64,000 bases of DNA from Ureibacillus sp. (lineage in GTDB: Bacteria; Bacillota; Bacilli; Bacillales_A; Planococcaceae): contig JAPSJC010000003.1 in NCBI GenBank assembly GCA_031178355.1, positions 1-64,000 on the forward strand, read 5' to 3'. Under the pieces are notes generated by a model that worked only from the letters and a program-made list of their open reading frames with translations, did no database searches and had not been told where the DNA came from. Of this stretch, positions 22,202-31,007 are shown piece by piece. The position numbers and the translations under genes were made by a program. Within the stretch, counting starts at the first letter, position 1, and every line of letters starts with the position of its first letter.

Positions 22202-22221
22202 TATCTTTATAGTTTTTCAAG

Positions 22222-22505
22222 TAGTGAAGAGATTGAAGTAGTGTTTTCACTCCCTGTATAGAGAGCTAGCGGTTAGTGTAAGCTAGTCACAGTGTAAACA
22301 TGAATTACGTTCTTGGAGCTTGAACGTGTTTGTCGCGATAAGGCAATACGAGTGGAAGAATTTATTCGGGTAAAAAGTACAATGCTTTTGATATCCGAAT
22401 CGATTGTCTTATATATGATTCTTCAAGCTGGGTGGTACCGCGTTAATTTATCTTAAACGTCCCTGCATACAATTTATGATTTGTATGTAGGGACTTTTTT
22501 TATTG
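22222..22505 (+). promoter_or_regulatory. T-box riboswitch of tyrS
   Basis: The tRNA-sensing leader carries the conserved T-box sequence tgggtggtaccgcg at 22429-22442. A strong terminator follows: gtccctgcatacaa / ttgtatgtagggac at 22459-22494, then seven T. In the upstream Stem I region a TAC triplet at 22306-22308 is a plausible tyrosine specifier. Uncharged tRNA-Tyr would favour the antiterminator and so switch on tyrS. Confidence 0.93.
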
Positions 22506-28062: not shown

Positions 28063-29382
28063 ATGCCAGTAGTATCGATTTTAATAGGAGTTATTCTTTT
28101 ATTAATACTTATGATGGGATTAAAGTTAAACGCTTTCATATCTCTCATTATCGCAGCATTAGTCGTAGCTATTTTAGAAGGAATGACACCAATTGAAGCC
28201 ATGGCATCCGTTCAAACCGGTTTAGGGAATTCGCTTGGTAGCTTAACGCTAATTATTATATTTGGAGCAGTTTTAGGTAAGTTAATGACTGAATCCGGTG
28301 GTGCACAACGTATTGCCACAACGATGTTAACTGCTTTTGGGATAAAACGAGTTCAATTTGCATCTGTAATTACTGCCAGCATTGTAGGAATTGCCTTGTT
28401 TTTCGAAACAGGGGTTGTTGTACTTATTCCATTAATATTTACAATTGCAACAGCAGCAGGTGTGCCACTTCTTTATATTGGACTTCCGGTAATTGCAGCT
28501 TTAATTACAATGCATGGATTTGTGCCTCCACATCCTGGGCCTACAGCAATTGCGGAAATTTTTGGCGCTAGTATTGGTCAAACAATTATGTGGGGAATTA
28601 TACTAGCAATCCCTGCTATTATTGTTGCTGGTCCATTATTTACTAAAGTATTCAAAAAAGAAGAATTAGAGGTTGAAATTCCAAAAGGATTATTTACTCC
28701 TAAGACATTTGAAAATCATGAAATGCCAGGATTTGTAACAAGTATTTTAACGGCACTATTACCGGTAATTTTAATTGGTATTAAGACTATAGTGGAAATA
28801 GTAGCACCTGATTCTGCTATTCGACCATTTACAGATTTTATTGGAACAGCAAGTACAGCATTATTAATTTCAGTTATTATAGCAATGTTTACATTCGGAC
28901 TTAACCGAGGAAAAAACATGAACGAAATTATGAACATCTTTGCTGATGCAACAGCAGGTATCGCATTAATTCTATTAATTATCGCTGGTGGTGGTGCGTT
29001 CAAACAAGTATTACTTGATAGTGGCATCGATCAATATATCGCAGGTTTAATGGAAGGTACTACACTATCACCAATTCTTTTAGTTTGGGTGATAGGTGCG
29101 GTATTACGTGTAGCATTAGGATCTGCAACAGTTGCTGGTATGACTGCAGCAGGGATTGCAGCGCCAATAGTAGCAGTAACAGGTGCTAGTCCAGAGCTTA
29201 TGACACTCGCTGCAGGAGCAGGTAGTGTAGGATTCTCTCATGTTAACGATGCAGGATTCTGGATTGTTAAAGAATATTTTAATATGTCAATAGGGAAGAC
29301 ATTTAAAACTTGGACAGCATTAACTTCTATTATCTCAATAATAGGGTTATTTGGAGTATTAATTTTGGATATGTTTATTTAA
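28063..29382 (+). CDS. GntP-family gluconate/sugar-acid:H+ permease
   Basis: This 439-residue integral membrane protein has about 12 hydrophobic segments. GntP signatures include the GMTPIEAMASVQTGLG region, the VPPHPGPTAIAE loop typical of GntP/YgbN carriers, and the GSATVAGMTAAGI C-terminal segment. It is the last gene of the operon and the likely importer of its substrate. The start is placed at ATG 28063 (MPVVSIL) because gagg lies eight bases before it; the in-frame extension to 28015 would run through the intercistronic hairpin and add a hydrophilic stretch not seen in the family. Confidence 0.9.
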   Translation: MPVVSILIGVILLLILMMGLKLNAFISLIIAALVVAILEGMTPIEAMASVQTGLGNSLGSLTLIIIFGAVLGKLMTESGGAQRIATTMLTAFGIKRVQFASVITASIVGIALFFETGVVVLIPLIFTIATAAGVPLLYIGLPVIAALITMHGFVPPHPGPTAIAEIFGASIGQTIMWGIILAIPAIIVAGPLFTKVFKKEELEVEIPKGLFTPKTFENHEMPGFVTSILTALLPVILIGIKTIVEIVAPDSAIRPFTDFIGTASTALLISVIIAMFTFGLNRGKNMNEIMNIFADATAGIALILLIIAGGGAFKQVLLDSGIDQYIAGLMEGTTLSPILLVWVIGAVLRVALGSATVAGMTAAGIAAPIVAVTGASPELMTLAAGAGSVGFSHVNDAGFWIVKEYFNMSIGKTFKTWTALTSIISIIGLFGVLILDMFI

Positions 29383-29393
29383 AAGTACATTTC

Positions 29394-29436
29394 GAGGCAC
29401 GAGTGAGTATATATCATCTCACTTGTGGCTTTTTTA
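29394..29436 (+). terminator. Terminator of the sugar-acid operon
   Basis: gaggcacgagtgag pairs with ctcacttgtggct (one mismatch, one G-T pair), followed by six T. Confidence 0.8.
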
Positions 29437-29497
29437 AGTTAAGTTATGAATATGTAATGATTGGTTACATATACATCGTTAAACTAGATTATTTGAT

Positions 29498-29526
29498 TTG
29501 ATAATCAATTCACGATATTCTATTTA
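29498..29526 (+). promoter_or_regulatory. Candidate promoter of the CNNM gene
   Basis: TTGATA (29498-29503) and TATTTA (29521-29526) are 17 bp apart. They would give an approximately 125-nt leader containing a further partial hairpin (ggggtgtttc ... gggaaccacac, about 29544-29570). Confidence 0.4.
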
Positions 29527-29617
29527 CTAGATTGTTAAGAATTGGGGTGTTTCTGATGGGAACCACACGCTAAATATTTGTAATTTTATAAAAAATGGAA
29601 ATAAAGACTATCTAACC

Positions 29618-29660
29618 AGGAGGTGGAGTCTTACTTATTATTAAGTAAGACAATTAGTTG
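29618..29660 (+). promoter_or_regulatory. Ribosome binding site separated from its TTG start by a hairpin
   Basis: A near-perfect Shine-Dalgarno, aggaggtgga (29618-29627), is followed directly by a perfect 10-bp stem (gtcttactta / taagtaagac, 29628-29651) with a 4-nt loop. Then come aattag and the start TTG (29658-29660). The linear gap from aggagg to TTG is 34 nt, far beyond the usual 5-10, but folding the stem leaves about 10 nt. An in-frame TAG at 29655-29657 rules out an upstream start. Confidence 0.75.
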
Positions 29661-30983
29661 ACCGCATTAAATTTAACCATTTTTGTCATATTAATTATTT
29701 TAACTGCTTTTTTTGTTGCAACAGAGTTTGCGATTGTAAAAGTGAGGCATTCTCGTATTGATCAACTTGTAGATGAAGGGCATAAAGGTGCATTAGCTGC
29801 AAAGCATGTTATATCACATCTTGATGAGTATCTATCTGCATGTCAGTTAGGTATAACTGTAACCGCATTAGGAATCGGTATGGTTGGTGAATCAACCTTT
29901 GAATTTATTTTACACCCGTTATTTGAAGCAGTAGGTATTGGCCCGGATTATGTACACTATTTTACAATTGCAGGTGCATTTGCATTGGCTACATTTTTCC
30001 ATGTAGTAGTTGGTGAATTAGCACCAAAATCTGTTGCGATTCAAAAAGCAGAGGAAATAACATTATTGTTCTCAAAGCCAATTATGATATTTTACAAAAT
30101 ACTTTTCCCATTCATCTGGTTTTTAAATGGTTCCGCACGAATTCTAATCGGACTTTTTGGTATGAAACCAGCAAATGAGCATGAGCTATCCCATACAGAA
30201 GAAGAACTGCGATTATTACTAACTGAAAGTTATAAAAGTGGAGAAATCAATCAGAACGAATTGAATTACGTAAATAACGTCTTCGAGTTTGATGAAAGAA
30301 TCGCAAGGGAAATCATGGTATCGAGAACACGAATGGTTGGTTTTGATAAAAGTGTCTCATTTGAGGAAATATTAACTACTGTATCTGAAGAACGCTATAC
30401 AAGATATCCAATATTTGATGGTGATCGTGATAATATTATTGGTTTTATTAATATTAAGGATTTTTTAACTCAAGGAATGAGTAAACGCATTAGGCCAGAA
30501 ACATTTAAAATCGAGGACTTTATTAACCCAATAATAAAAGTAATCGATTCAACACCTATTAACACCTTATTAGTTAGAATGCAAAAAGATCGAACACCAA
30601 TTGCTATTTTAATCGATGAATACGGTGGGACATCGGGTCTTGTGACAATTGAGGATATTATAGAAGAAATTGTTGGAGAAATACAAGATGAATTCGATGA
30701 TGATGAAATCGCTGATATAAGAATTGAAGCAGAAGGAATCTATATTTTACATTCTAGTGTATTACTTGATGACGTCGAGGATTTATTAAAAATAAGCTTT
30801 GAAACACCAGAAATCGATACAATTGGTGGTTGGTATTATAACCAAGATGTAGATTTAGAAGAAATCACAAGTATTGAATACAATGGTTATATATTTACAA
30901 TTTATGATAAAGAAGATCACCAAATTAATTTTTTAAAGGTTGAAAAGCTAGATGAAATAGAGAATATAGATGAAGAAGAGTAG
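29658..30983 (+). CDS. CNNM/CorC-type membrane protein (DUF21-CBS-CorC_HlyC)
   Basis: This 441-residue protein has a DUF21/CNNM membrane domain with about four helices in the first 190 residues (start MTALNLTIFVILIILTAFFV; CQLGITVTALGIGMVGE is characteristic). A cytosolic pair of CBS domains follows (about 200-335, with DEYGGTSGLVTIEDIIEEIVGEI). A C-terminal CorC_HlyC domain completes it. Family members such as MpfA and YhdP-type proteins act in Mg2+ export or divalent metal tolerance. The start can only be TTG 29658: the next in-frame start codon, a GTG, falls after the first membrane helix. Translation initiation is unusual, since a hairpin separates the ribosome site from the start. Confidence 0.9.
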   Translation: MTALNLTIFVILIILTAFFVATEFAIVKVRHSRIDQLVDEGHKGALAAKHVISHLDEYLSACQLGITVTALGIGMVGESTFEFILHPLFEAVGIGPDYVHYFTIAGAFALATFFHVVVGELAPKSVAIQKAEEITLLFSKPIMIFYKILFPFIWFLNGSARILIGLFGMKPANEHELSHTEEELRLLLTESYKSGEINQNELNYVNNVFEFDERIAREIMVSRTRMVGFDKSVSFEEILTTVSEERYTRYPIFDGDRDNIIGFINIKDFLTQGMSKRIRPETFKIEDFINPIIKVIDSTPINTLLVRMQKDRTPIAILIDEYGGTSGLVTIEDIIEEIVGEIQDEFDDDEIADIRIEAEGIYILHSSVLLDDVEDLLKISFETPEIDTIGGWYYNQDVDLEEITSIEYNGYIFTIYDKEDHQINFLKVEKLDEIENIDEEE

Positions 30984-31007
30984 GCCGAATTTTTCGGCCT
31001 TTTTTTA
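30982..31007 (+). terminator. Terminator of the CNNM gene
   Basis: aggccgaa / ttcggcct stem with a 3-nt loop and seven T; the left arm overlaps the stop codon. Confidence 0.9.

Follow-up and report, generated by a model that had tools for sequence, protein, structure and literature searches.

A hairpin between the Shine-Dalgarno sequence and the start codon of CNNM/CorC genes in Bacilli as a putative spacer of a split ribosome binding site

The question raised by this locus is how a ribosome could start on a TTG codon that is separated from its Shine-Dalgarno (SD) sequence by a perfect hairpin. The site lies in a 64,000-nucleotide stretch of a Ureibacillus sp. contig (JAPSJC010000003.1, positions 1 to 64,000), hereafter the window, and precedes a gene for a CNNM/CorC-type transporter. 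The initial annotation, made from the letters alone, had suggested that initiation depends on the folded stem, which might act as a temperature-, protein- or ion-sensitive switch. The two halves of this suggestion are considered here by comparing the leaders of related genes in Bacilli.

The element in the window

The features of the locus are the following:

29613..29666, + strand: whole element, in the extent matched by the covariance models R1 and R2, R1 having been built with the window sequence included
29618..29627, + strand: extended Shine-Dalgarno sequence AGGAGGTGGA, with the core GGAGG at 29619-29623
29628..29637, + strand: 5' arm of the hairpin, GTCTTACTTA, read from sequence, folding and covariation
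29638..29641, + strand: hairpin loop TTAT, whose sequence and length are not conserved among relatives
29642..29651, + strand: 3' arm of the hairpin, TAAGTAAGAC, read from sequence, folding and covariation
29652..29657, + strand: single-stranded spacer AATTAG, in which an in-frame TAG abuts the start codon
29658..30983, + strand: CNNM/CorC gene of 441 aa with a TTG start (29658-29660) and CNNM, CBS and CorC_HlyC domains

All the parts described by the initial annotation at 29618-29660, including the in-frame TAG directly 5' of the TTG, are present, and the stem between SD and TTG is a perfect one of 10 bp with a 4-nt loop. The distance from GGAGG to TTG is 34 nt along the linear sequence and exactly 10 nt without the hairpin, in agreement with the claim that folding mends an overlong spacing. 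Folding of 29610-29670 gives exactly the SD-to-TTG hairpin with a predicted stability of -15.9 kcal/mol, which is equalled by 2 of 200 shuffled sequences. After the TTG no in-frame start codon occurs before the GTG of codon 29, which lies past the first hydrophobic stretch, so that a later start would indeed drop the first membrane helix; the gene assignment also holds, the CNNM transmembrane, CBS and CorC_HlyC domains all being found in the protein by Pfam.

A scan of 29380-29680 for promoters and terminators found none. Directly past the CNNM stop codon, at 30984-31007, the sequence GGCCGAATTTTTCGGCCTTTTTTT resembles a transcript end of the intrinsic-terminator type. The known cis-regulatory RNAs of Rfam, riboswitches included, were rejected as an identity of the element, since no covariance model matched at its place at the gathering score in the leader, in the window or in 11 relatives; the initial annotation had likewise recognised no riboswitch in the leader. 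The other partial hairpin that it had noted there is not conserved, and many relatives have the coding sequence of a MerR regulator in this position. A MerR-family gene lies directly 5' of the CNNM gene in many relatives, among them those with leaders L302, L303, L304, L326 and L328, and in several of these its stop codon overlaps or adjoins the SD; in the window the gene 5' of the CNNM gene encodes a permease-like membrane protein, with no MerR. Elsewhere in the window a T-box leader (RF00230) was detected at 22215-22467 on the + strand with 100.5 bits.

Pairing, spacing and distribution across Bacilli

The order SD, hairpin, 5-6 nt and TTG recurs in the window gene's paralogue within the genome and in orthologues across the family, with stems that change from one to the other (GTCTTAC/GTAAGAC, CGTCTTAC/GTAAGGCG, TGTTCTAC/GTAGAACA, CGTTCTGT/ACAGAACG and TCCCTTA/TAAGGGA), and GGAGGTG stands unchanged in all 21 of the closest leaders. 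The covariation check proposed in the initial annotation was run on these 21 leaders in a sequence-based alignment (MAFFT): 94.9% of the cells are paired, 8 of the 10 pairs show double changes, and none of 500 shuffles matches the values for paired cells, double changes or covariation score. In a second alignment of 50 leaders, made by a model and fitted to the structure, 94.0% of the cells are paired and compensatory cells number 106, against 35.6 in shuffles and at most 25 with slid partners, for which the covariation score is at most 0.158 as compared with 0.548 for the true ones. The hairpin is thus shown to be real and maintained by compensatory change.

The geometry of the interval was measured in 110 distinct sequences, in which the linear spacing from SD to start is 35.3 +/- 8.4 nt (range 18-50) and the hairpin is 10-41 nt long, linear spacing following hairpin length nearly 1:1 (slope 1.08, r 0.99). 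The residual spacing that is left when the hairpin is subtracted is 9.8 +/- 1.3 nt, a figure that is partly conditioned because the search used in this wide survey demands pairing and summed flanks of 6-13 nt; shuffled intervals match the score of their own hairpin in 1.1% of cases on average, and this control, together with the sequence-based alignment, offsets the conditioning only in part. The flanks consist of mostly 3-6 nt 5' of the hairpin, counted after GGAGG, and 4-7 nt 3' of it. In ordinary genes of the same genomes the mode of the GGAGG-to-start distance is 7-8 nt (within the range of 4-13 nt that was looked at), about 2 nt below the residual spacing of the CNNM leaders. Predicted stabilities range from -2.5 to -17.7 kcal/mol with predicted melting at 58 C or above in all 105 hairpins, and the smallest hairpins, CCCTTCGGGG, are weak at about -2.5 kcal/mol. 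Since the residual distance is constrained and the letters and total length are free, selection appears to keep the pairing and the residual distance, and ribosomes therefore probably start across the folded hairpin.

The architecture, consisting of an extended SD, a hairpin, 4-7 nt and a start codon that is usually TTG, occurs 5' of CNNM genes in about 19 families of Bacilli. A loose scan for it in the window and two relatives (864 kb, 940 ORFs) gave 28 matches, among which the clean ones, i.e., those with an uninterrupted stem and a start codon that lies outside the hairpin and is the first of its ORF, are the five CNNM genes; these 864 kb and the scans with covariance models make up the genome-wide background. 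In the genome to which the window belongs R1 finds two strong sites, which are the window gene and its CNNM paralogue, and across the order it matches in 120 of 261 genomes; among 20 mostly weak R1 matches that were inspected, all those with E <=0.0026 are CNNM starts, and the seven that are not lie at 0.004-0.05. By coordinates, 48 of 49 R2 matches in 61 genomes lie at CNNM starts, the sole exception being a weak one (G049:C1:817627), and across the class R2 gives 85 matches in 62 of 151 genomes, 80 of them at CNNM starts by coordinates or reading. The weak R1 and R2 matches outside CNNM genes, inspected singly, were mostly dismissed as chance-like. The only plausible non-CNNM case among the inspected matches is leader L318 (G341:C60), which reads GGGGGTGAA-TCTCTGCTCTTAAGCAGAGA-AGATG-ATG before a gene for which tblastn with the CNNM protein is empty.

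When leaders were picked by protein similarity alone, about 51 of 60 had the hairpin by inspection. It is present in records of Bacillus subtilis (where the leader, in strain SRCM104011, reads GGAGGTGTAC-GCCTTAC-TAA-GTAAGGC-AAATCA-TTG and belongs to a gene taken to be yrkA because yrzO and bltD are next to it), Priestia megaterium, Listeria monocytogenes, Niallia taxi and Sporosarcina, and the architecture is also seen in Lysinibacillus and Aneurinibacillus. The RefSeq start in Priestia and Sporosarcina is the same TTG or GTG after the hairpin. Homologues that lack the stem and have an ordinary spacing, which the initial annotation had named as speaking against its proposal, are a minority; ordinary spacing was found in some Paenibacillus-like genomes, a plasmid copy of Staphylococcus pasteuri, Pontibacillus and Paraclostridium, and the hairpin is consequently not essential to the protein family. 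Leader L176 has lost the hairpin, and its AGGAGGTGGAGTCT runs straight into an ATT where the start would be expected; the start codon may be a non-standard one, or the start may be misplaced. The open-licence papers covered describe no hairpin between the SD and the start of CNNM, mpfA or yrkA genes, and to our knowledge no old chromosomal split ribosome binding site bound to one gene family has been reported.

A probable bridging hairpin and its alternatives

With a probability of roughly 0.8, the hairpin at CNNM/CorC gene starts would be the structural spacer of a split ribosome binding site. In this mechanism the anti-SD of the 30S subunit would pair with AGGAGGUG(A/G) and the hairpin would remain folded, protruding from the subunit, so that the nucleotides on either side of it, 3-6 before and 4-7 after and about 10 together, could serve as an ordinary spacer that puts the UUG in the P site. 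Unfolding of the hairpin would be expected to lower initiation, and the hairpin and the weak UUG together may hold the exporter at a low output that can be tuned. It may be guessed that the hairpin stacks near the SD duplex, from the invariance of GGAGGTG in the closest leaders and from a stem that mostly starts 3-6 nt past GGAGG. Initiation at the TTG across the folded hairpin, as first suggested, is favoured by the compensatory changes, by hairpins of 10-41 nt that leave a residual of about 10 nt and by the RefSeq starts; kept pairing and residual distance are what a bridging hairpin predicts, and are not predicted by an operator in the DNA, by an aptamer or by a loop recognised by a protein. 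Against bridging count the minority of homologues with ordinary spacing, the excess of about 2 nt of the residual spacing over the mode of ordinary genes and the weakness of the smallest hairpins.

An operator, i.e., a palindrome bound as DNA by the MerR regulator of the neighbouring gene or by another repressor, would fit the perfect palindrome of the window and the MerR gene that directly precedes the CNNM gene in many relatives, but it is hardly credible, as half-sites and loop lengths vary freely with the pairing kept, the 21 G-U pairs on the sense strand exceed the 9 A-C cells expected from antisense wobble, the place between SD and start is fixed in about 19 families and the element is present in the window without a MerR gene. 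The TTG start of the window gene is itself predicted, and initiation might occur further up- or downstream with ordinary spacing; this is very improbable in view of the in-frame stop immediately 5' of the TTG, the hydrophobic segment that a start at the codon-29 GTG would cut, the conservation of the start codon and of its place after the hairpin and the identical TTG or GTG in the RefSeq records. A stable structure is usually inhibitory when it lies in an initiation region, and the hairpin could accordingly slow initiation, which would then follow upon its opening, or act in mRNA stability as an entry site for an RNase or helicase. The response of the mpfA mRNA level to CshB (PMC5122736) would suit such a role, which is nevertheless unlikely, since the open state leaves the SD 18-50 nt from the start as compared with an ordinary mode of 7-8 nt, the stem includes neither the SD nor the start, and the residual spacing is a conserved feature.

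A bridging hairpin could also be regulated, with a CshB-type helicase, Mg2+ or a protein shifting it between folded and open states and so setting exporter synthesis, high Mg2+ favouring the folded, active form; this is possible but doubtful. The element is confined to a gene family of putative Mg2+ exporters, export having been proposed for MpfA of Staphylococcus aureus from genetics. In that species loss of the DEAD-box helicase CshB leads to overexpression of the mpfA mRNA, most strongly in RPMI and at 25 C (PMC5122736), and a GUG to AUG change by which the paralogue mpfB initiates better alters Mg2+ tolerance (PMC6711546). Both results agree with a switch, but the cshB effect is on the mRNA level and possibly indirect according to its authors (PMC5122736). 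Leaders of a group with Staphylococcus-like genome sizes carry the hairpin. A nearly invariant apical CCC-CUCAUUY-GGG in the type B subtype likewise speaks for regulation, whereas the window's type has no conserved stem or loop sequence, and the range of stabilities, the predicted melting and the empty Rfam search count against it. The temperature-, protein- or ion-sensitive switch of the initial annotation is so far without support, given the predicted melting at 58 C or above and the unconserved stem and loop letters of the window's type.

Some leaders depart from the common form. The type B paralogue leaders (L040-L059, L090-L096, L101) have a larger hairpin, and its basal stem varies more than the apical CCC-CTCATTY-GGG, as though a factor read this apex or a tertiary contact involved it. 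In L246 and L254 the 3' arm of the stem reads GGAGG (CCCTCC-loop-GGAGGG) 6 nt before the TTG, and this second SD inside the hairpin makes a two-state arrangement possible; in L276 and L278 the SD (GGTGT) and an ACACC ahead of the TTG might pair with each other in the outer part of long GC-rich hairpins, with a possible sequestration of the SD. It may tentatively be imagined that Bacilli, as a class, regulate Mg2+ export with the hairpin as a spacer switch, translation being on in the folded state and turned down by helicases, by Mg2+ or by a factor that recognises the subtype loop; if so, export would be under feedback from the ion that stabilises the RNA. The hairpin is also a concrete candidate for what ties mpfA expression in S. 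aureus to a DEAD-box helicase, a connection as yet unexplained.

Comparison with known systems

RNA thermometers such as fourU and ROSE have, as the CNNM leaders, a 5' hairpin at the initiation region. This identity was rejected, because in the CNNM leaders SD and start are outside the stem, the folded form should be the active one and the predicted melting (at least 58 C in 105 hairpins) is far above growth temperature. The M-box, the Mg2+ riboswitch of mgtE, and other metal riboswitches are also cis elements of Mg2+-transport genes; in contrast to them, the CNNM leaders have one small hairpin, no conserved aptamer and no Rfam match. The extended SD motifs of S. aureus share with these leaders a start-proximal extension of the SD and frequent UUG starts, but they consist in a longer SD pairing, and the main text of the paper contains no hairpin, stem-loop or mpfA (PMC13009471).

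The closest likeness is with genes 38 and 25 of phage T4, in which a long SD-start spacing is also cut by an intervening hairpin, from 22 to 5 nt and from 27 to 11 nt respectively, and destabilising mutations reduce initiation (PMC3014915). As in T4, the SD-start distance of the CNNM leaders would be too long for use unless the hairpin is folded (34 to 10 nt in the window, and likewise in the 110 leaders), and the pairing of the intervening hairpin is conserved, as seen from covariation in 21 and in 50 leaders; by analogy it is concluded that the CNNM leaders would work like the T4 split sites. Split ribosome binding sites, formerly a curiosity of two T4 genes, would then be an old, selected feature of one transporter family across Bacilli, including B. 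subtilis, with a bearing on how ribosomes cope, at initiation, with folded RNA that separates SD and start, and CNNM genes with the hairpin would break the SD-spacing rules used in annotation. Unlike the T4 sites, the CNNM leaders are chromosomal, extend over about 19 bacterial families, belong to one transporter family and mostly start with UUG, and their function is predicted here.
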